DNA of 64,000 nt from positions 62,001 to 126,000 of the forward strand of contig NZ_JACHGT010000011.1 of assembly GCF_014202425.1 (NCBI RefSeq). Direction: 5' to 3'. Positions 16,556 through 62,469 of this stretch are shown in pieces. The DNA is from Phytomonospora endophytica (GTDB taxonomy: Bacteria; Actinomycetota; Actinomycetes; Mycobacteriales; Micromonosporaceae). The translations under genes and the position numbers were made by a program. Position 1 is the first letter of the stretch; each line of letters begins with the position of its first letter. Below the pieces are notes generated by a model. The model made no database searches and was not told where the DNA came from. It was given only the letters and a program-made list of their open reading frames with translations.

Positions 16556-17581
16556 ATGACACGTCGCATCAGTGAGGTCGCCAAGAAGGCCGGGGTCAGC
16601 GAGGCCACCGTCAGCCGCGTCCTCAACGGCCGCCAGGGCGTCGCCGAGACCACCCGGGCGGCCGTCCTGACCGCCCTCGACGTCCTCGGCTACGAACGTC
16701 CCACCAAGCTCCGCGGCGAACGCGCCCGCCTCGTCGGCCTGGTCCTCCCCGAACTCCAGAACCCGATCTTCCCGGCCTTCGCCGAGGTCGTCGCCGGCGC
16801 GCTCGCCCAGCGCGGCTTCACCCCCGCGCTCTGCGCGCGCACCATAGGCGGCGTCCAGGAGTCCGACTACGTCGACATGCTCCTCGACCACCAGGTCTCC
16901 GGCGTGATCTTCGCCGGCGGCCAGTACGCCCTGGCCAACGCCGACCACACCCACTACTCCCGCTTCACCGACCGCGGCCTGCCCGTCGTCCTCATCAACG
17001 CCGGTGTCGAGAACCTCGGCTTCTCCCGCATCTCCGCCGACGACGCCGTCGCCGTCGAGCAGGCCTTCGGCCACCTCGTCTCCCTCGGCCACGAACGCAT
17101 CGGGCTCGTCCTCGGTGCCGAGGACCACCTCCCGTCGCGGCGCAAGACCGAAGGACTGCGCGTCGCCGCCGCCCGGCTCGGCTCGCCGCTGGCCGACCCG
17201 GCGCGCGTCGAGGAGTGCATCGAGCGCTCGCCCTTCTCGATGGAGGGCGCGCGGGCCGCGGCGACGCGGCTCGTGCAGCGCGGTGTCACCGGCATCATCT
17301 GCGCCAGCGACGTCATGGCACTGGGGGCCGTGCGGGCCGTGCGGCGCATGGGCCTGCGGGTGCCCGAGGACGTGTCGGTCATCGGTTTCGACGACTCGGC
17401 GCTGATGACGTGCACCGACCCGCCGCTGACGACGGTCCGTCAGCCGATCGAGGCGATGGGCCAGGCCGCCGTCGACCTGCTCGCCAACCTCATCGACGGC
17501 GCCGCCATCACCCCCGACGAGCTGCTGTTCGAGCCCGAGCTGGTGGTCCGGGGCTCGACGGGGCCGGCGCCCAGGGACTGA
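16556..17581 (+). CDS. LacI-family transcriptional regulator of the alpha-glucan locus
   Basis: A 341-aa LacI/GalR protein. The N-terminal HTH is RISEVAKKAGVSEATVSRVL with the hinge helix beginning NGRQGV, and the periplasmic-binding-like sugar domain follows (GLVLPELQNPIFP, then GVTGIICASDVMALGAVRA, SVIGFDDSALM). TACACT lies 7 nt before the ATG at 16556, so it is probably leaderless. It precedes an alpha-glucan uptake and degradation operon whose promoter region has a CTTGCAG-type inverted repeat, the kind of operator used by actinobacterial maltose/maltodextrin repressors. It is closed by a strong terminator. Confidence 0.92.
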   Translation: MTRRISEVAKKAGVSEATVSRVLNGRQGVAETTRAAVLTALDVLGYERPTKLRGERARLVGLVLPELQNPIFPAFAEVVAGALAQRGFTPALCARTIGGVQESDYVDMLLDHQVSGVIFAGGQYALANADHTHYSRFTDRGLPVVLINAGVENLGFSRISADDAVAVEQAFGHLVSLGHERIGLVLGAEDHLPSRRKTEGLRVAAARLGSPLADPARVEECIERSPFSMEGARAAATRLVQRGVTGIICASDVMALGAVRAVRRMGLRVPEDVSVIGFDDSALMTCTDPPLTTVRQPIEAMGQAAVDLLANLIDGAAITPDELLFEPELVVRGSTGPAPRD

Positions 17582-17592
17582 CGGCACGCGAG

Positions 17593-17626
17593 AAAAGGGC
17601 GGGATCCGGACGGATCCCGCCCTTTT
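17593..17626 (+). terminator. Strong terminator after the LacI gene
   Basis: A perfect 15-bp stem, AAAAGGGCGGGATCC, with loop GGAC and its complement ending in TTTT, begins 12 nt after the LacI stop. It separates the regulator from the transport operon. Confidence 0.9.
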
Positions 17627-17666
17627 GCATGCCCGAAACCGGATGTTGATCTGTCTATAAGTTCCA

Positions 17667-17689
17667 TCTGCAAGTTGAAATCTTGCAGA
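17667..17689. promoter_or_regulatory. LacI-family operator before the sugar-binding protein gene
   Basis: TCTGCAAG-N7-CTTGCAGA is a perfect 8-bp inverted repeat. The CTTGCA halves resemble sites of actinobacterial MalR-type LacI repressors. A possible -10 box TATAAG (17656-17661) lies just before it, so binding would block transcription. The adjacent LacI protein is the likely binder. Confidence 0.7.
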
Positions 17690-17778
17690 AACAGATTCGG
17701 TTCTGTATGTTCAGCGGCAACCTTCATGACATGACCTACCTCACAAGACAGCCCGACACCCGGAAGGTCCCACCCCAA

Positions 17779-19137
17779 ATGAAGCGCTCCCTGTACGGCA
17801 GGGCGACCGCCCTGGTCGTCGCGGCCGGTCTGGCGTTCAGCCTCACCGCCTGCGGCGACGACGAAGAGCCCCAGCAGGACGGTCCGGTGACGCTCGTCGT
17901 CAACGGCCTGCCGCCGGAGACCGAGAAGGTCAACCGCGAGAAGTTCCTCGCCGACGTCGCCGAGTTCGAAGCCGCCAATCCCGACATCACCATCGACGCC
18001 CGCGAAGGCAAGATGGTCCCCGAGGAGTTCCAGGCCAAGCTCGCCGGCGGCCAGCTCGAAGACGTGTTCTACACGTACTTCACCGACCCCGCCGGGCTCA
18101 TCGCGCGGCACCAGGTCGCCGACATCACCGACTACGTCAAGGACTTCCCCGCCCTCGCCCAGATCCGGCCCGAACTGATGGCCGTCTACTCCGACGACAA
18201 GGGCCGCGTCTACGGCGTCCCGCAGGGCAACTACTCCACCGGGCTGGTCTACAACCGGGCGCTGTTCGAGAAGGCCGGGCTCGATCCCAACAGCCCGCCG
18301 AAGACCTGGGCCGACGTCCGCACCGCCGCGCAGAAGATCGCCGCGCTCGGCAAGGACTACGTCGGCTACGGCGAGTACAGCAAGAACAACACCGGCGGCT
18401 GGCACTTCACGACCGCGCTGTACTCCGTCGGCGGCGACCTCGCCGTCAACGAGGGCGGGACGTGGAAGGCGTCGTTCAACAACGACCTCGGCAAGCAGGT
18501 CCTGCAGAACCTCAAGGACATGCGCTGGACCGATGACAGCATGGGCACCCGTCAGGGCCTCGAATACGCCGACCTGCTGCGGCTGATGGGCTCGGGCAAG
18601 CTCGGCATGTACCTCGGCGACGCGAACATGCTGCCGACGATCGTGCAGGAGTACAAGGGCGAGTACAAGGACTACGGACTCGGCCCCATCCCGGGCGGCA
18701 CCGCGACCCTCGCCGGCGGCGACGGGTACATGTTCAACGCCAAGGCGAGCCCCGCGACGATCCGCGCGGGCCTGAAGTGGCTGACCTACGCCTTCGCCAA
18801 CCCCGACCCGGCGCGCATCGAGTTCAACACGAAGTGGTCGTCCGACACCGGGAGCCCCGTCGGGCTGCCCGAGCCGCAGATCTGGGCCGGTGACGCCGCC
18901 AAGGCCCTCACCGACGCGCGGGCGAAGTACGCCAACATGCCGGTCGAGAACTTCTCGCCCTTCGTCAACGCGATGAGCACGATCCCGCTGAAGCTGGAAC
19001 CGCCGAACGCGCAGGCCCTCTACGCGCTGCTGGACGTGCCGATGAACAAGGTGCTGACCGACGAGAACGCCGACATAGCCGCGTTGCTGGCCGACGCGGA
19101 GACGCAGGCGAACTCGATCCTCGCGGCCGTGAAGTGA
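17779..19137 (+). CDS. Carbohydrate ABC transporter substrate-binding lipoprotein
   Basis: A 452-aa extracellular sugar-binding protein. The start at 17779 follows GGAAGG and gives a lipoprotein signal (MKRSLYGRATALVVAAGLAF) with lipobox LTAC. Family segments visible are VYGVPQGNYSTGLVYNRALF, then PKTWADVRTAAQKIAAL. It is the first gene of the alpha-glucan operon, behind the CTTGCAG operator, and precedes two permeases. Given the GH13 and GH87 enzymes downstream, the likely ligands are alpha-glucan oligosaccharides (nigero- or malto-type). A large hairpin after the gene may keep its mRNA in excess over the permeases. Confidence 0.9.
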   Translation: MKRSLYGRATALVVAAGLAFSLTACGDDEEPQQDGPVTLVVNGLPPETEKVNREKFLADVAEFEAANPDITIDAREGKMVPEEFQAKLAGGQLEDVFYTYFTDPAGLIARHQVADITDYVKDFPALAQIRPELMAVYSDDKGRVYGVPQGNYSTGLVYNRALFEKAGLDPNSPPKTWADVRTAAQKIAALGKDYVGYGEYSKNNTGGWHFTTALYSVGGDLAVNEGGTWKASFNNDLGKQVLQNLKDMRWTDDSMGTRQGLEYADLLRLMGSGKLGMYLGDANMLPTIVQEYKGEYKDYGLGPIPGGTATLAGGDGYMFNAKASPATIRAGLKWLTYAFANPDPARIEFNTKWSSDTGSPVGLPEPQIWAGDAAKALTDARAKYANMPVENFSPFVNAMSTIPLKLEPPNAQALYALLDVPMNKVLTDENADIAALLADAETQANSILAAVK

Positions 19138-19204
19138 CGGGTTAGGGCTCCACGCCCGGCTCACCTCGCACGGCCCGGCGGGTTTCCCTTCGGCCGGCCG
19201 GGCA

Positions 19205-19241
19205 CGCGGGTGCCGAGCAGCCTCCGGGCTCGGCACCCGCG
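19205..19241 (+). terminator. Intercistronic hairpin after the binding-protein gene
   Basis: A perfect 14-bp stem, CGCGGGTGCCGAGC with its complement, around a 9-nt loop, 68 nt past the stop. There is no T tail. It is likely an mRNA stabiliser or partial terminator between the binding protein and permease genes, as is common in such operons. Confidence 0.65.
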
Positions 19242-19324
19242 GCCGCGGCGGGTTCGCCGCCGGGGAGGGACGTTCCGTGGGGCCGGGTTTCCGGCCCTGG
19301 GAGGTGCCGCCTCGCGAGGGGACT

Positions 19325-19362
19325 CGGCTCTCGGGTCGGGTGCCGGCTCTCGGGTCGGGTGC
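19325..19362 (+). repeat. Perfect 19-bp tandem duplication
   Basis: CGGCTCTCGGGTCGGGTGC occurs twice in a row (19325-19343 and 19344-19362) in the non-coding gap before the permease gene. Confidence 0.9.
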
Positions 19363-19394
19363 TCTACGGGCCGCCGCGTTCCGCTCGGGGTGGG

Positions 19395-19628
19395 TCTTCG
19401 CTCCGGGGTGGGTCGGTCCACCGGGTGGGTCGGTCCACCGGGTCGCGTCGTCCTGCCGGGGTGGCTCGATCCACTGGGTCGGCTCGGTCCACCGGGGTGG
19501 GTCGTCCCGCCTGGCTTGCGTCGTCCCGCCGGGTCGTCTCGATCCACCGGGTCGGCTCGTCCCACCAGGGCGTCTCGGTCCACCCGGTCGCGTCGTTCCC
19601 CAGAGTCGCGTCGCCGCCCGAGCGGCCC
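19395..19628 (+). repeat. Degenerate 18-bp tandem repeat, about 13 units
   Basis: Units of 18 bp (one of 17, one of 19) run in a row with rough consensus TCGgTCCaCCGGGTCGGc. Clear copies start at 19413, 19430, 19466, 19484, 19521, 19539 and 19575; the ends are more worn. The unit contains GGTGG and CCACC halves, so the transcript could form many small hairpins. No coding frame through it is convincing on either strand. The rest of the 781-bp gap (19138-19918) holds a hairpin, a 19-bp duplication, a GTCACC-rich stretch (19658-19725) and a small leader ORF. Confidence 0.8.
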
Positions 19629-19817
19629 GCGAACCCCACGCGGTCACTGCCGCCCGGCCCGTCACCCCGTCACCCCGCCGCCGTCACCGCATCCCCGTCA
19701 CCGCACCCCGTCACCCCCCGTCGCCCAGAACCCAAGCCAGGGGCCTCCCGGCCTCCTCCCTACATCTGACGGTAGATCGGCGCCACGCGCGGCCGTCGAA
19801 CATGAAAGGGCTTTCCT

Positions 19818-19922
19818 GTGGACAACAGGACCAATGTGGACAACCCACAGTGGACGGACCCGGCCGTGGCGCCGGGCCGCCGTCCCGCCCCTCCGGGGCC
19901 GTCGAGCGGCGGCCGGCCATGA
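19818..19922 (+). CDS. Possible 34-codon leader ORF coupled to the permease gene
   Basis: A GTG at 19818 follows GAAAGGG at 7 nt. The frame encodes 34 Pro-, Gly- and Asn-rich residues beginning MDNRTNVDNPQWTDPA and stops at 19920-19922, overlapping the permease ATG at 19919 (ATGA). It may be a leader peptide that carries ribosomes to the permease start. Alternatively it is the true permease N-terminus displaced by a frameshift, because permease N-termini here have similar composition. Coding is unproven. Confidence 0.35.
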   Translation: MDNRTNVDNPQWTDPAVAPGRRPAPPGPSSGGRP

Positions 19923-20956
19923 CCGGCCCCGCCACCACCGGCCCCACCACCGGCGCGGCCGTCCCGAAGGACCGGACGAACCCCGGCGGCCGCGAGAACT
20001 CCCCCCAGTGGTCGCGCCTCCCCGACGCGCCCGACCCCACCCCGCGCAGGCCCAACGGCCTGGCCGCCCGCATCCCCGTGCGCATCCGCCGCAAACTCGG
20101 CGACAACGCCCTCGCCTACCTCTTCCTCGCCGCCGGCCTCGCGTGCTTCGCGCTCTTCTCCTGGTATCCCCTCGTCCGCGGCGTGATCCTGTCCTTCCAG
20201 CAGGTCAACTTCGTCACCGACCCCTACTGGGTCGGCACCGAGAACTACGACTCCCTCTTCGCCGATCCGCTGTTCTGGACGGCCTGGAAGAACACCCTCG
20301 TCTTCACCGGCATCGCCCTCGTCCTCGGCTTCGCCGTCCCCTTCGTCCTCGCGGTGTTCCTCAACGAACTCCGCGCCCTCAAGGGCTTCTTCCGCATCGC
20401 GGTCTAACTCCCGCTGATGCTCCCGCCGATCGTCGTCGTCCTGCTGTGGCAGTACTTCTACGACCCCGGCAACGGCCTGTTCAACTCGATCCTCAGCGGC
20501 ATCGGCCTCCCGCCGTCGCAGTGGGTCCAGTCGCCCGACACCGCGATGGTCTCCCTCGTCCTCGTCGCGACCTGGGCGAACCTCGGCGGCACCACGATCA
20601 TCTACCTCGCCGCCCTCCAGAACATCCCCGGCGAGCTCTACGAGGCCGCCGAACTCGAAGGCGCGAGCGTCTGGCAGCGCGTCCGGCACGTGACGATCCC
20701 GCAGACGCGTTTCGTCCTGCTCGTCATGCTGCTGCTGCAGATCATCTCCACGATGCAGGTCTTCATCGAGCCCTACCAGCTGACCGGCACGACCAACCCG
20801 GACACGATCACCGTGATGGTCCTGGTCTACCGGTACGCGTTCACCGTCAACCACGACTTCGGGCTCGCCGCGGCGATGAGCGTCGTCCTGTTCGTCGTCC
20901 TCGCGCTGTTCTCCGCGATCTACCTGCGCGTCACCCGCGAAAGGGAGTCGGCATGA
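19919..20956 (+). pseudogene. Sugar ABC transporter permease (MalF-type) interrupted by an in-frame stop
   Basis: The frame from 19919 encodes a MalF-like permease: a Pro-rich cytoplasmic start, a first helix YLFLAAGLACFALFSWYPLV, and SFQQVNFVTDPYWVGTENY, up to GFFRIAV. A TAA at 20405-20407 then breaks it. The same frame continues at once with LPLMLPPIVVVLLWQYFYD and the EAA loop LYEAAELEGASVWQRVR to the stop at 20956. The TAA stands where a Tyr (TAC/TAT) would be natural, so one base change explains it. The second part could restart at ATG 20417 (179 aa) but has no ribosome site. Overlap with the next gene is ATGA. It may be a mutation or a sequencing error. Confidence 0.85.
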
Positions 20957-21831
20957 CCCGGACCCTCATCTCCGAGACCGTCCTGCGGCGCAGGCGCGGC
21001 CGGCTCCTGCACCTGACCGCCGTCGCGGTGACGGTCGTCGTGTTCGCGTTCGTCTTCCTCTTCCCCCTGTACTGGATGGTCACCGGCGCGGTGAAGGACC
21101 CCGACGAGCTCGCGCGGGCCACACCGACGCTGATCCCCGAGACGTGGAACCTCGACTCCTTCGCCACGGCCTGGACGCAGCTCCAGATCGGGAAGTACTT
21201 CCTCAACACCGCCTTCTACGCCGTGGGCGGCTGGTTCATCCAGATCGCCGTCGACGTGTGCGCCGCCTACGCCCTGTCGCGCCTGCGGCCGTGGGGCGGC
21301 CGGGTCGTCCTCGGCGCGATGCTGGCGAGCCTCATGCTCCCGGCGACGGCGCTGCTGATCCCGGCCTACATGACCGTCGCCGACGTCCCGCTGTTCGGCG
21401 TGAACCTGCTGAACACGCCCTGGGCGCTGTGGCTTCCGGCCGCCGCGAACGCCTTCAACATCTACCTGCTGAAGCGTTTCTTCGACCAGATCCCCGGTGA
21501 ACTCCTCGACGCCGCCAGCATCGACGGCGCCGGACGGCTGCGGATCCTGTGGAGTGTCGTGCTCCCACTGTCGCGGCCGGTGCTGTCGGTGGTGTCGATC
21601 TTCGCCGTCATCGGCATGTGGAAGGACTTCCTCTGGCCCTTCCTCGTCCTGCAGGACCCCGACACCCAGACCCTCAGCGTCGCGCTGAGCCGCCTGGCCA
21701 ACACCAGTTACATCACCGACAGCGAGATGTTCGCCGGTCTCGTCATCGCCAGCGTCCCCATGGTCGTGATCTTCCTCGCGCTGCAACGCCAGATCCTCGC
21801 CGGACTGTCCGCCGGCGGGGTCAAGGGCTGA
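20953..21831 (+). CDS. Sugar ABC transporter permease (MalG-type)
   Basis: A 292-aa permease with six helices. It has the MalG-type start FLFPLYWMVTGAVKDPDEL and the EAA loop LLDAASIDGAGRLRILW, in which the first E of EAA is D. The ATG at 20953 overlaps the preceding permease stop and follows AAGGGAG. It would pair with the interrupted MalF-type partner and the lipoprotein encoded at 17779. No ATPase is encoded in the locus, as in MsiK-type systems where one ATPase serves several importers. The gene itself looks intact. Confidence 0.9.
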   Translation: MTRTLISETVLRRRRGRLLHLTAVAVTVVVFAFVFLFPLYWMVTGAVKDPDELARATPTLIPETWNLDSFATAWTQLQIGKYFLNTAFYAVGGWFIQIAVDVCAAYALSRLRPWGGRVVLGAMLASLMLPATALLIPAYMTVADVPLFGVNLLNTPWALWLPAAANAFNIYLLKRFFDQIPGELLDAASIDGAGRLRILWSVVLPLSRPVLSVVSIFAVIGMWKDFLWPFLVLQDPDTQTLSVALSRLANTSYITDSEMFAGLVIASVPMVVIFLALQRQILAGLSAGGVKG

Positions 21832-21876
21832 ACCCGGCCCGCGATCCCCATCCCCGCAACGAAAGCAGGTCCGTCT

Positions 21877-23541
21877 GTGGCTACAACCAACGCCTGGTGG
21901 CAGGACGCGGTCATCTACCAGGTCTATCCCCGCAGCTTCGCCGACGGCAACGGCGACGGCGTCGGCGACCTCGCCGGGATCCGCGCGCGACTGCCCTACC
22001 TGGCCGAACTCGGGATCGACGCGATCTGGTTCAGTCCCTGGTATCCCTCACCGATGGCCGACGCCGGATACGACGTCATCGAGTACCGCGACATCGCGCC
22101 GGTCTTCGGGACCCTCGCCGAGGCCGAGGCGCTCATCGAGGAGGCGCACGGGCTGGGCGTGCGCATCATCGTCGACGTCGTCCCCAACCACGGCTCCGAC
22201 GCGATGCCGTGGTTCCAGCAGGCGCTCGCCGACGGCGAGGGAAGCGCGATGCGGCAACGCTTCTGGTTCCGGCCGGGCCGCGGCGAGCACGGCGCCGAGC
22301 CGCCGAACGACTGGCGTTCGATCTTCGGGGGACCGGCCTGGACCCGCACGAAGAACGCCGACGGCACGCCCGGGGAGTGGTACCTGCACCTGTTCGCACC
22401 CGAGCAGCCGGACCTGAACTGGGAGCACCCGGCGGTGCGCGAGGAGTTCCTCGACGTGCTGCGCTTCTGGCTCGACCGGGGCGTCGACGGCATCCGCGTC
22501 GACTCCGCGGCGCTGCTGGTCAAGGATCCGGCGCTGCCCGACGGCGGCGACGACGCCGACCCGTTGTTCACCGACCGCGACGAGGTCCACGACATCTACC
22601 GCTCCTGGCGGGCGCTGAGCGACACCTACGACGGCGACCGCATGCTCGTCGGCGAGGTGTGGCTGCCCGACCCGGTCCGCTTCGCCAACTACCTGCGGCC
22701 CGACGAGATGCACACCGCCTTCAACTTCGGCTTCCTCGGCTGTCCCTGGGACGCGGGCGAACTGCGGAAGGTCGTCGACGACACCATCCGTTACCACGAG
22801 CCCGTCGGGGCGCCGGCGACGTGGGTGCTGTCCAACCACGACGTCACCCGCCATGTCACCCGTTACGGCCGCGCCGACACGTCCTTCAGCTTCGCCGCCA
22901 AGAAGAACGGCGCCGGTGAGATCCCCGTCGACCTCGCCCTCGGCGAGCGCCGGGCGCGGGCGGCGTTGCTGCTGTGCCTGGCACTGCCCGGATCCACCTA
23001 CGTCTACCAGGGCGAGGAGCTGGGGTTGTGGGAGGTCGAGGACATTCCCGAGGAGCTGCGCGACGATCCGATGTGGCATCGCTCGAACCACGCCGATCCC
23101 GGTCGTGACGGCTGCCGTGTCCCGATCCCCTGGTCGGGGCAGGAACCGCCGTTCGGCTTCGGTCCACAGGGGACGACGCCGTGGCTGCCGCAGCCCGCCG
23201 CCTGGCGCGACCGAACCGCCGAGGCCGAGGACGGCGACCCGGCCTCCATGCTGAACCTGTACCGGAGGGCGCTTCGCGCGCGCCGCGGCGAACCCGCCCT
23301 CGGTCACGGCCCGATGGCCTGGGTCGACGCGCCGGAGGGCGTGCTGGCCTTCACCCGTGAGGACCAGGTGACCTGCGTGGTCAACCTGTCGCCGGATCCC
23401 GTCGCGTTGCCCGAGGGCGCCGAGGTGCTGCTGGCCAGCGCCGAACTCGACGGCGGTTCGCTTCCCACCGACTCCGCGGTCTGGCTGCGCGGCCACACCG
23501 CCCTGCCCGAGAACCCCGAGATGGAGAGGAAAGTGCGATGA
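21877..23541 (+). CDS. GH13 alpha-glucosidase / alpha-amylase-family enzyme
   Basis: A 554-aa intracellular GH13 enzyme with no signal peptide. The (beta/alpha)8 barrel opens WWQDAVIYQVYPRSFAD. The conserved regions are DVVPNH, GIRVDSA (nucleophile D209), VGEVW (acid/base E260) and LSNHDVTRH (third Asp D322). The layout is that of oligo-alpha-glucosidases, which cut glucose from the non-reducing end of short alpha-glucans. The GTG start at 21877 lies 45 nt after the permease stop, behind AAAGCAGG. It overlaps the GH87 gene by 4 bp, so it probably finishes off oligosaccharides released outside by GH87 and imported by the ABC system. Confidence 0.92.
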   Translation: MATTNAWWQDAVIYQVYPRSFADGNGDGVGDLAGIRARLPYLAELGIDAIWFSPWYPSPMADAGYDVIEYRDIAPVFGTLAEAEALIEEAHGLGVRIIVDVVPNHGSDAMPWFQQALADGEGSAMRQRFWFRPGRGEHGAEPPNDWRSIFGGPAWTRTKNADGTPGEWYLHLFAPEQPDLNWEHPAVREEFLDVLRFWLDRGVDGIRVDSAALLVKDPALPDGGDDADPLFTDRDEVHDIYRSWRALSDTYDGDRMLVGEVWLPDPVRFANYLRPDEMHTAFNFGFLGCPWDAGELRKVVDDTIRYHEPVGAPATWVLSNHDVTRHVTRYGRADTSFSFAAKKNGAGEIPVDLALGERRARAALLLCLALPGSTYVYQGEELGLWEVEDIPEELRDDPMWHRSNHADPGRDGCRVPIPWSGQEPPFGFGPQGTTPWLPQPAAWRDRTAEAEDGDPASMLNLYRRALRARRGEPALGHGPMAWVDAPEGVLAFTREDQVTCVVNLSPDPVALPEGAEVLLASAELDGGSLPTDSAVWLRGHTALPENPEMERKVR

Positions 23542-26138
23542 CCATGTTACGAAGGAGGGCCTGGCCGGTGCTCGCGACGACGGCGGTGCTGGCCGCCGGT
23601 GTCCTGTCGGCCGGCCCGGTGACCGCCGGGAAGCCTTTAGGAGACAACGTTGCCGCCGCCCCGGCGCCGGAGGTCTCGGCCTTCGACGTCGCCGGCGGTG
23701 CGACCGTCCCGTTCATCGAGCAGGAGGCTGAGAACGTCGCCCACAACGGGACCGTGATCGGCCCGAACCGGCTGTACACGACGCTTCCGTCGGAGGCTTC
23801 GGGCCGCCGGGCGGTGACCCTCGACGCGGTCGGCGAGTACGTCGAGTTCACCCTCACGGCGCCGGCCAACGCGATGACGGTCCGCTACAGCCTGCCCGAC
23901 AATGCCGCCGGGACCGGCATTACGGCACCGATCGACCTGCGGGTGAACGGCTCGAAGGTCAGGGACCTGCCGCTGACCTCGAAGTACGGTTGGTTCTACG
24001 GCAGTTACCCGTTCACCAACCAGCCCGGCGACAAGCCGCACCACTTCTACGACGAGACGCGCACCATGTTCGGCTCGACTCTCGGTGCGGGCACGAAGGT
24101 CCGGCTTCAGGTCGCGTCGATGGGCGCGTCGTCGTTCACCATCGACCTCGCCGACTTCGAGAACGTCGCCGCGCCGATCGGGCGCCCGGCGGGCGCACTG
24201 TCCGTTGTGGACTATGGCGCCAACCCCAACGGCGGCGGTGACTCCACGGCCGCGTTCCAGGCCGCGGTCGACGCCGGGCGGACTCAGGGCAAGGTCGTCT
24301 ACATCCCGCAGGGCACCTACTTCCTGTACGACCACGTGATCGTCGACCAGGTGACGCTGGCCGGCGCCGGGCAGTGGTACAGCGTGCTGACCGGCCGGCA
24401 CCCGACGCAGCGGCAGAAGGCCGTCGGGATCTACGGCAAGTACGTCGGCGAGGGCGGGCCTTCGCAGAACGTGACGCTGAAGGACTTCGCGATCATCGGT
24501 GACATCGCCGAGCGCGTCGACGGCGACCAGGTCAACGCCATCGGCGGAGCCATGTCGAACTCCACCGTGGACGCGGTGTGGATGCAGCACACCAAGGTCG
24601 GCGCCTGGATGGACGGGCCGATGGACCGCTTCCGGATCGTCAACAGCCGCATCCTGGACCAGACCGCCGACGGCGTGAACTTCCACATCGGCGTGACCAA
24701 CTCCTCGGTGGAGAACACCTTCGTGCGCAACACCGGCGACGACGGCCTGGCGATGTGGGCGGAGAACCGCGGCGGAGTCACGAACGCCGGCAACTCCTTC
24801 GTCCGCAACACCGTCGTGCTGCCGATCCTGGCCAACAACATCGTCGTCTACGGCGGGCGGGACATGAACGTCTCCGACAACGTCGTCGCCGACACCGTCA
24901 GCAACGGCGGCGGCCTGCACGTCGGCAACAGGTACGACGGCGTCAACGGCCCGACGGGCGTGCTGGGGACCTTCACCCTGGCGCGGAACACCCTGATCCG
25001 GGCCGGTAACGGCGACTACAACTGGCCGTTCCCGATCGGCGCGATCTGGTTCGACGCGCGCAACGAGCCGATGGTGAACGCGACCATCAACGTCACCGAC
25101 ACCGACATCATCGACAGCTCCTACGCGGCCATCCACTTCGTGTCCGGCACGACCAGGGGCGTCAACTTCAACAATGTCCGGATCAACCGGACCGGCACCT
25201 TCGCCATCCAGCTCAACGACCCGGGTGCGGCGAGTTTCACGAACGTCACCGCGACCGGGATCGGCTTCACCGAACCGATCTACAGCTGCCTGGGCTCCGG
25301 CTTCACCATCACCCAGGGCGGCGGCAACTCGGGCTGGAACACGAAACTGCCGAACACCTACTGCGGACCGTTCCCGCCCCCGAACTACGGCGGAACGACA
25401 CCGACCGGGCCCCGGATCGCCGTGAGCCCAGGGGCCCTGGCCTTCGGCGACCAGCAGGTCGGCACCACCGGCGCGGCCAGGGCCGTGACGATCAGCAACC
25501 CCGGTGACGCCACCGCGAACATCTCCTCGGTGTCGGTCTCCGGCGACTACGCCCGCACCACCAACTGCGGCGCCACGCTCGCACCGGGCGCGAGCTGCAC
25601 GGCGAACGTGACCTTCACGCCGACGGCGGCGGGCTCGCGGACGGGCGCGCTGTCGGTGTCGTCGAACGCGACGGGGAGCCCGCACACGGTTTCCCTGTCC
25701 GGCAACGGAACCACGGCCAACGCCAACCTGGCGCTGAACCGGCCGGTGTCGGCGAGCAGCTACACGCAGGTGTACGGGCCGGGCAACGCCGTCGACGGCA
25801 ACGCCTCCAGCTACTGGGAGAGCGCGAACAACGCCTTCCCGCAGACGCTGACGGTGGACCTGGGTTCGGCGCGGAACGTGGGCCGGATCGTGCTGAAACT
25901 CCCGCCGTCCTCGGCGTGGGGGACGCGTTCGCAGACCGTGGCGGTCGCGAAGTCGGCCGACGGCGGGGGCTACTCCACCGTCGTCGGTGCCACGTCGTAC
26001 ACCTTCGATCCCGCGACGGGCAACACCGCGACGATCACCTTCGCGGCCACGTCGGCGCGCTTCCTGCGCCTGACGTTCACCGCGAACAGCGGCTGGCCGG
26101 CGGGTCAGTGCTCGGAGTTCGAGGTCTACGCGAGCTGA
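23538..26138 (+). CDS. Secreted GH87 alpha-1,3-glucanase / mycodextranase-type enzyme, multidomain
   Basis: An 866-aa secreted protein: signal peptide (residues 1-30), CBM6-like domain (about 50-210), right-handed beta-helix (about 215-620), a choice-of-anchor-D-type domain (about 630-725) and a C-terminal F5/8 type C (CBM32-like) domain. The helix has QTADGVNFH and RNTGDDGLAMW, placing Asp at 378, 401 and 402; as I remember it, the GH87 catalytic Asp triad has this spacing. GH87 enzymes cut alpha-1,3-glucan or nigeran, polymers of fungal walls. The start overlaps the GH13 stop (ATGA). TTA codons occur at residues 4 and 34, which in Streptomyces would make translation depend on bldA tRNA. Confidence 0.85.
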   Translation: MTMLRRRAWPVLATTAVLAAGVLSAGPVTAGKPLGDNVAAAPAPEVSAFDVAGGATVPFIEQEAENVAHNGTVIGPNRLYTTLPSEASGRRAVTLDAVGEYVEFTLTAPANAMTVRYSLPDNAAGTGITAPIDLRVNGSKVRDLPLTSKYGWFYGSYPFTNQPGDKPHHFYDETRTMFGSTLGAGTKVRLQVASMGASSFTIDLADFENVAAPIGRPAGALSVVDYGANPNGGGDSTAAFQAAVDAGRTQGKVVYIPQGTYFLYDHVIVDQVTLAGAGQWYSVLTGRHPTQRQKAVGIYGKYVGEGGPSQNVTLKDFAIIGDIAERVDGDQVNAIGGAMSNSTVDAVWMQHTKVGAWMDGPMDRFRIVNSRILDQTADGVNFHIGVTNSSVENTFVRNTGDDGLAMWAENRGGVTNAGNSFVRNTVVLPILANNIVVYGGRDMNVSDNVVADTVSNGGGLHVGNRYDGVNGPTGVLGTFTLARNTLIRAGNGDYNWPFPIGAIWFDARNEPMVNATINVTDTDIIDSSYAAIHFVSGTTRGVNFNNVRINRTGTFAIQLNDPGAASFTNVTATGIGFTEPIYSCLGSGFTITQGGGNSGWNTKLPNTYCGPFPPPNYGGTTPTGPRIAVSPGALAFGDQQVGTTGAARAVTISNPGDATANISSVSVSGDYARTTNCGATLAPGASCTANVTFTPTAAGSRTGALSVSSNATGSPHTVSLSGNGTTANANLALNRPVSASSYTQVYGPGNAVDGNASSYWESANNAFPQTLTVDLGSARNVGRIVLKLPPSSAWGTRSQTVAVAKSADGGGYSTVVGATSYTFDPATGNTATITFAATSARFLRLTFTANSGWPAGQCSEFEVYAS

Positions 26139-26146
26139 CCGGGCGA

Positions 26147-26177
26147 CGGTCCGCCGCGCCGGGGGCGCGGCGGACCG
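26147..26177. terminator. Bidirectional terminator between convergent genes
   Basis: A perfect 14-bp stem, CGGTCCGCCGCGCC with its complement, around a GGG loop, lies between the convergent stops of the GH87 gene (26138) and the oxidoreductase gene (26185). It can serve both strands. Confidence 0.8.
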
Positions 26178-26184
26178 GGCCGGG

Positions 26185-26826
26185 TCAGCCCGCGATGAGT
26201 CCGATGTGGACTCCGCGGTGGCCGGGGTCCTCGACGAGGTCGAGGATCCCGGTGGCGAAGTCGGCGTAGGTGATCCGGCCGACGCCGCCGTAGGCCTCGG
26301 CGAAGTTCGTCACGCCGAGGTCGGCGAGCGTCGCGGCCTTCGCCGAGCCCGTGGGCGCCGACTCGCGGTCGAAGTCGGTGGTGGGGGATACGGCCGTCCA
26401 GTCCAATGAGGACGACGCGAGTCGCGCGGACCCGGCGGCGTGGCCGAGGCTGAACGGCCTGAACTCGGCGGGGAAGTCGGGCGCGTCGACCAGGCGCTCT
26501 CCGGGTGAGAGCTCCAGCAGCGACGACAGCGAGACGTGGATCAGCCGCGGCGGCGCGGCGGCGATCAGCGCGTCGGCGGCGGCCGGGAAGAACACGGCGG
26601 GATCGACGTCGAGCGTGGCCGTCGCGTTGACGGCGACGTCGTGCCCCCGGATCGCCTCGGCGACGGCGGAGGCGTCGGTGACGTCGCCCTGGACGACGCG
26701 GGTGGCCGCGGGCGCCTTGGCGGCGTCGCGGACGAACGCGGTGACCTCGTGGCCGCGCGCGAGCGCGGCGGCGACGACGGCACGACCGCCCTGACCTGCG
26801 GCGCCGAGGACGATGAGGTGGGACAT
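26185..26826 (-). CDS. NAD(P)-binding oxidoreductase (atypical SDR, YwnB-like)
   Basis: A 213-aa Rossmann protein. The dinucleotide motif is VLGAAGQGGRAV, then TAFVRDAAKA, VVQGDVTDASAVAEAI and the downstream LIHVSLSSLLEL. It lacks the classical YxxxK pair of short-chain dehydrogenases, as in the NmrA/YwnB group, and may be a sensor or reductase. The ATG at 26826 follows AAGGAGAG. It is divergent from an HxlR regulator with a GGTATC-N5-GATACC palindrome between them, the usual pair in which HxlR represses the oxidoreductase in response to quinones, aldehydes or similar stress. Confidence 0.87.
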   Translation of the reverse strand: MSHLIVLGAAGQGGRAVVAAALARGHEVTAFVRDAAKAPAATRVVQGDVTDASAVAEAIRGHDVAVNATATLDVDPAVFFPAAADALIAAAPPRLIHVSLSSLLELSPGERLVDAPDFPAEFRPFSLGHAAGSARLASSSLDWTAVSPTTDFDRESAPTGSAKAATLADLGVTNFAEAYGGVGRITYADFATGILDLVEDPGHRGVHIGLIAG

Positions 26827-61320: not shown

Positions 61321-62469
61321 TCAGCCCTCCCGCAGCACCCGGAAGAAGGAGCGCACGTCGGCGACCAGCTCCGTCGGCGCCTGAAGCGCCCCGAAATGCC
61401 CGCCGGCGTCGATGTCCGCCCAGCGCGTGATCCGGTGCGACAGCTCCGCCAGGCCCCGCAGCGCCCGGTCACCGCGGAAGTTCGCCACGCCCGTCGGCAC
61501 CCCCGACGAGGGCCTGCGCTCGCCCCAGACCTCGCCGGCGGCCTCGCGGTAGAGGCGCGCGGCCGAGCCGGCCGTCCCGGTGAGCCAGAAGGCGGTGACG
61601 TCGGTGAGGATCGCGTCGCGCGCGACGGGCGTCTGCCAGGAGGAGCCCGGATCCCAGTCGGCGAACCATTCCAGGTTCCACGCCAGCTGCCCGACCGGTG
61701 AGTCGTTGAGCGCGTAGGCGAGCGTCTGCGGACGGGTGCTCATCTGCACGGCGTAGCCGGAGTGGCCGCGCCACCAGGCGGCGTTGTCCTCGGCCTGCTC
61801 GCGTTCGTCGGCGGTGAGTTTCTCCAGTTCCGCGGCGTCGAAGGGGGCGGAGGAGTCGGCGAGGGCGTTGACGTGCACGCCGACGACGTCGCCCGGCGCG
61901 TGCCTGCCGAGCTCGGCGGAGACGGCGCTGCCGAAGTCGCCGCCCTGCGCGCCGTAACGCCGGTAACCCAGGCCCGCCATCAGTTCCGCCCACGCCCGTG
62001 CCGTGCGCACCGAACCCCAGCCGGGCTCGCCCGTCGGTCCGGAGAACGCGAAACCGGGCAGGGAGGGCGCGACGACGTGGAAGGCGTCGGCGGGGTCGCC
62101 GCCGTGGCCGCGCGGGTCGGTCAGCGGGCCGATGATCGCCAGGAAGTCGAAGACGGTGCTCGGCCAGCCGTGCGTGATGACCAGCGGCAGCGCGTCGGGC
62201 TCGGGGGACTCGACGTGCAGGTAGTGCAGGTGCTGGCCGTCGATGACGGTCGTGAACTGCGGATGCGCGTTGAGCCGCGCCTCCTGCGCGCGCCAGTCGA
62301 AGCCGTCGGCCCAGTACGCGGCGAGTTCGGCGAGGTGGCCCTCCTCGACGCCCTGGGACCAGCCCGCGCCCGGCATCTGCCCGGGCCAGCGGGTCGCCGC
62401 GACGCGTTCGCGGAGGAACGCGAGCTCGGCTTCGGGGACGTCGACGCGGAAGGGGCGTGGTGTGTCCAT
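61321..62469 (-). CDS. Epoxide hydrolase, alpha/beta-hydrolase fold
   Basis: A 382-aa member of the microsomal-type epoxide hydrolases. It has the N-terminal domain (PFRVDVPEAELAFLRERVAA, WRAQEARLNAHPQFTTVIDG), the oxyanion motif ITHGWPSTVFDF and the nucleophile Asp in AQGGDFGSAV. The last acid/His part is ADIDAGGHFGALQAP. It turns epoxides into diols; the substrate is not known. TATATC lies 6 nt before the ATG, so it may be leaderless. It is convergent with the IclR gene. Confidence 0.88.
   Translation of the reverse strand: MDTPRPFRVDVPEAELAFLRERVAATRWPGQMPGAGWSQGVEEGHLAELAAYWADGFDWRAQEARLNAHPQFTTVIDGQHLHYLHVESPEPDALPLVITHGWPSTVFDFLAIIGPLTDPRGHGGDPADAFHVVAPSLPGFAFSGPTGEPGWGSVRTARAWAELMAGLGYRRYGAQGGDFGSAVSAELGRHAPGDVVGVHVNALADSSAPFDAAELEKLTADEREQAEDNAAWWRGHSGYAVQMSTRPQTLAYALNDSPVGQLAWNLEWFADWDPGSSWQTPVARDAILTDVTAFWLTGTAGSAARLYREAAGEVWGERRPSSGVPTGVANFRGDRALRGLAELSHRITRWADIDAGGHFGALQAPTELVADVRSFFRVLREG

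Follow-up and report, generated by a model that had tools for sequence, protein, structure and literature searches.

An in-frame stop codon, probably a recent nonsense mutation, in the MalF-type permease gene of an alpha-glucan operon of Phytomonospora endophytica

INTRODUCTION

In Phytomonospora endophytica, a soil-type actinomycete, the gene for the first membrane subunit of a predicted alpha-glucan importer contains an in-frame TAA codon. Has the strain lost the importer, is the interrupted gene still translated into a working permease, or is the stop an artifact of sequencing? We addressed this question in a window of 64,000 nucleotides (positions 62,001 to 126,000 of contig NZ_JACHGT010000011.1), to which all positions refer unless a contig is named. 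The original prediction left four readings: a recent loss of uptake, a split permease, read-through of the stop, or a sequence error. The recent loss, which we favor, and the error remain, whereas the comparisons described below gave no support to restart or read-through.

RESULTS

A conserved operon with an interrupted permease gene. The gene order LacI-type regulator, binding protein, MalF, MalG, GH13, and alpha-1,3-glucanase-type enzyme (Table 1) is common to many Micromonosporaceae and to other taxa. Operons of the same order occur in Couchioplanes, Asanoa, Catellatospora, Actinoplanes, and others, and the MalF proteins of the nearer group are 64 to 81% identical to the one described here. 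In most relatives, the regulator gene stands at the same place, and the inverted repeat at 17668-17688 is probably the operator of this regulator. The operon studied here differs from those of its relatives in the stop within malF and in a repeat-rich block that enlarges the spacer between the binding-protein gene and malF. No known RNA structures were found in 17500-26500, and literature searches on this operon, on nonsense cases in permeases, and on dispersed DnaA-box repeats returned nothing directly relevant.

TABLE 1 Positions of the operon genes and associated features in the window
Feature	Position	Strand	Basis or remark
LacI-type regulator gene	16556..17581	+	Pfam LacI, Peripla_BP_3; start taken at MTRRISEV
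Inverted repeat CTGCAAG-N7-CTTGCAG (CTGCAAGTTGAAATCTTGCAG)	17668..17688		Pattern found; 5' of binding-protein gene
Sugar-binding lipoprotein gene, intact	17779..19137	+	Pfam SBP_bac_1; full-length alignment to relatives
Strong hairpin (CGCGGGTGCCGAG...CTCGGCACCCGCG)	19205..19241	+	Fold; 3' of binding-protein gene
GC-rich tandem repeats	19325..19726		Periods 18/36/73, then 8/14; fill enlarged spacer
Dispersed ~120-bp non-coding element, one copy	~19726..19845	+	Two TGTGGACAAC motifs at end: 19817-19826, 19835-19844
Short 34-codon ORF, GTG start	19818..19922	+	TGA overlaps malF ATG
malF-type permease gene, TAA-interrupted	19919..20956	+	Pfam BPD_transp_1 across stop if TAA is read as a residue
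In-frame TAA	20405..20407	+	Codon 163; five residues into predicted helix 3
ORF of malF 3' half	20417..20956	+	179 codons from ATG 20417
malG-type permease gene, intact	20953..21831	+	Pfam BPD_transp_1; full-length match to relatives
GH13 alpha-glucosidase-type gene, intact	21877..23541	+	Pfam Alpha-amylase 9e-99
Alpha-1,3-glucanase-type gene (CatAgl D1/D2), intact	23538..26138	+	Pfam CatAgl_D1 1.4e-46

The protein encoded by malF matches BPD_transp_1 over residues 142 to 338 (3.1e-16) only if an amino acid is put in for the TAA; of the two halves taken singly, the 3' one also matches this domain and the 5' one gives no match. With the TAA read in this way, the product has the helices across the BPD_transp_1 core that characterize MalF-type (CUT1) permeases, and its MalG-type and binding-protein partners are encoded in the same operon; an uninterrupted frame for a single polypeptide is missing. 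Residues 55 to 338 match SugA, the mycobacterial trehalose permease (PDB 8ja7 and 7cad), at 7e-30, and residues 119 to 341 match Escherichia coli MalF (2r6g) at 5.8e-19; both of these proteins are unbroken, in contrast to the permease described here.

The stop replaces a conserved tyrosine in a well-kept gene. The TAA stands in the reading frame opened at ATG 19919, as had been predicted, and the coding character of this frame is retained on either side. Codon log-odds average 1.32 over the 40 codons 5' of the stop and 1.15 over the 40 codons 3' of it; the coding average for the genome is 0.84, and wrong frames average -1.36. Such a break within a well-coding frame is far beyond chance. The prediction that both halves were well kept in one frame was likewise borne out: tblastn joined them in a single alignment to relatives across the TAA, and 87 of the 88 near-invariant residues after the stop are unchanged. 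One near-invariant site is thus changed after the stop and 1 of 36 before it, compared with a mean departure of 0.8 to 0.9% in other taxa. MalG, the binding protein, and the GH13 enzyme resemble MalF in this respect, with no excess change at conserved sites. Because malF has not decayed, the stop, if real, is young.

The codon aligned to the TAA encodes tyrosine, as TAC or TAT only, in all 70 distinct relatives of at least 60% identity, in agreement with the proposal that one base change from a Tyr codon produced the stop; the position is thus sense in every relative, the pattern of a nonsense pseudogene. Across about 110 loci of relatives the codon was again TAC or TAT, with Leu or Phe found only in distant paralogues from the same genome. 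Since TAC is used far more often than TAT in the training genes of this genome (1,681 versus 90), TAC rather than TAT most likely gave rise to the TAA.

We also screened about 790 kb of this genome (positions 1-400000 of C2, C11 in full, and parts of C14 and C6) for junctions at which coding sequence continues in one frame beyond a stop. Among the 13 junctions found, one-by-one inspection left malF as the sole true in-frame break. In one other junction the frame is probably non-coding, and the rest are places where one gene ends and the next starts (nuoF/nuoG, nuoH/nuoI-like, and other adjacent pairs). A single true break in this span argues against an assembly with many false stops.

Nothing else in the genome comes closer to this single-copy locus than 67% identity in DNA and 45% in protein, and the locus is therefore no collapsed repeat. 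We considered rescue by a close paralogue and rejected it, given that the 45% identical MalF belongs to another sugar operon whose binding protein is 37% identical; the genome thus holds one close binding-protein and permease set of this kind. Reversible switching was also rejected, as slippage lacks a tract at GCGGTCTAACTCCC and recombination lacks a second copy above 67% DNA identity.

A repeat-rich insertion separates the binding-protein gene from malF. The flanking genes had been described as intact with normal overlaps. This description fits the 3' side, where malG overlaps the malF stop through ATGA at 20953, but on the 5' side the spacer to the binding-protein gene is 781 bases long and consists mostly of GC-rich tandem repeats and one copy of a dispersed element. 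Measured from the stop of the binding-protein gene, a fixed point in malF (residue 58) lies 953 bases away; in 109 loci of relatives, some of them entered twice, the corresponding distance has a median of 125 bases and reaches 396 at most. These lengths indicate an insertion of roughly 0.6 to 0.8 kb, found only here among the loci compared, and the operon cannot be called "otherwise intact."

The 5' end of malF differs from that of all relatives. Its N terminus (MTGPATTG...) is unlike their MAV... start, and the ribosome site at 19919 is weak (-5.0 kcal/mol). The 34-codon ORF that ends on the malF start is preceded by AAAGGG 5' of its GTG and is possibly a leader to which malF translation is coupled. 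The hairpin at 19205-19241, where some relatives show similar GC-rich inverted repeats, is a putative attenuator.

In a related reading, the operon is being lost as a unit: the inserted repeats would have come first and reduced malF expression, and the stop would have come later, under weak selection. The restriction of the insertion to this locus and the altered 5' end of malF, with no clear ribosome site, speak for this order of events, but the lack of excess change in the four operon proteins named above speaks against it, and we regard it as a tentative possibility. It is a variant of the nonsense mutation favored here, and its probability is part of the probability of that explanation.

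Of 239 conserved sites in the glucanase-type gene, 10 differ from those of relatives (4.2%, versus a mean of 1.5% in others), a rate above that of the other operon genes. It may belong to another subfamily or be under weaker selection.

A dispersed element with DnaA-box-like motifs. The ~120-bp element in the spacer, with core CCAGGGGCCTCCCGGCCTCCKCCCTA and two terminal TGTGGAYAAC motifs, is present in about 20 copies in this genome, and the copies have no coding score. A reversed-pattern control gave no matches, and the element was not found in 100 other genomes of the family with two mismatches allowed. We take the doubled motif to match the actinomycete DnaA box (TTGTCCACA) on the other strand. 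At three mismatches, the doubled motif TGTGGAYAACCNNNCGGTTGTGGAYAAC occurs 33 times in this genome; at two mismatches, it occurs 30 times here, 11 times in one relative (G004), 5 times in another (G007), and 0 to 2 times in the remaining sampled relatives.

Contig C6 has more than its share of the copies of the element (L183-L202), with 7 of about 20; dnaA lies on C16. On the 5' side of several copies (L173, L177, L172, and the one described here, at 19138-19730) stand locally unique GC-rich tandem repeats, with a different unit at each copy. Two diverged copies, L201 and L202 (G000:C6:280081 and 280687), lie 606 bp apart within a Pro/Thr/Ser-rich stretch that is free of stops in one frame and may be coding. 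The element is a separate lead, and perhaps a more interesting one than the stop itself.

DISCUSSION

A sequence error as the alternative. We consider the TAA to be probably an ordinary recent nonsense mutation that has made malF a pseudogene. The main competing explanation is a wrong base call in a strain whose malF is intact, which we hold to be unlikely. The assembly is a draft of 35 contigs, and the contig with malF contains four runs of about 98 N. A single-base consensus error would yield an identical sequence, and the undamaged halves of malF, free of further decay, are equally expected from an error. However, the window itself has no N and is separated from the N runs by over 3 kb, and the site is single-copy and outside repeats and homopolymers. 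The absence of any other true in-frame stop in the screened sequence further indicates that such errors are rare here. Real pseudogenes number in the tens in bacterial genomes, and consensus substitution errors that create stops are fewer. As a prior rather than a test, this difference favors a real mutation.

Restart and read-through. Ribosomes might instead restart at ATG 20417 and produce two fragments that assemble into a split permease, a reading that we judge very improbable. This ATG lies 9 nt past the stop, near enough for coupled restart, and the loss of two helices would leave the orientation of the remaining ones unchanged. Against this, the Met at 20417 is conserved in all 70 relatives, which lack the stop, and so has not arisen for restart. 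The ribosome-site energy there is -3.9 kcal/mol, compared with -6.2 to -8.6 kcal/mol at the clear starts of the operon (malG, -8.1; glucanase gene, -8.6; binding protein, -6.9; GH13, -6.2). Translation from this ATG would start within predicted helix 3 (residues 158 to 176 by hydropathy) and leave out the first third of that helix, and no split malF gene was seen among relatives. The restart proposed at this ATG is therefore unsupported, and it is still harder to credit that it yields a working split MalF, with the importer functioning as a natural three-piece permease.

Read-through yielding some full-length MalF would agree with the conserved frame and residues past the stop but is most improbable, since ARAGORN, run on each of the 48 tRNA loci in the genome, called ordinary anticodons only, with no suppressor anticodon able to read TAA, and a stop at codon 163 is conserved in no relative, as a recoded stop would be. 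In this genome, TAA also closes genes in the usual way (25 of 192 long coding frames), and it is generally the least leaky stop.

Consequences of a probably broken importer. In the explanation that we favor, a spontaneous mutation of the conserved Tyr codon, most likely from TAC to TAA, would have inactivated the gene for the first membrane subunit of the ABC sugar importer that serves the alpha-glucan operon. Translation would halt five residues into predicted helix 3, and the 5' product would be expected to comprise two helices plus a stub. The complete permease would not be made, and the MalF/MalG dimer would then be unable to form. The stop may also reduce the expression of malG and the downstream genes through uncoupling and polarity. 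The importer would already have been unusual beforehand, with the tandem repeats and the dispersed element parting the binding-protein gene from malF and altering the 5' end of malF.

This malF resembles the nonsense pseudogenes of bacterial isolates, in which a single point change likewise interrupts an otherwise conserved gene. The only difference is the neighboring insertion; the stop is known from one assembly, and the genus is represented by one genome in our comparison set.

If the stop is not real, the locus is a caution for annotation. If it is real, uptake through this importer should be lost, and sugars released outside the cell would not be taken up by this route. Nigero-oligosaccharides, named in the original prediction, are a plausible substrate in view of the neighboring enzymes. 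The strain would then have kept its four alpha-1,3-glucanase-type genes and the cognate glucosidase while the sole close-match importer is broken, and it would be a natural mutant for testing the cargo of this importer.
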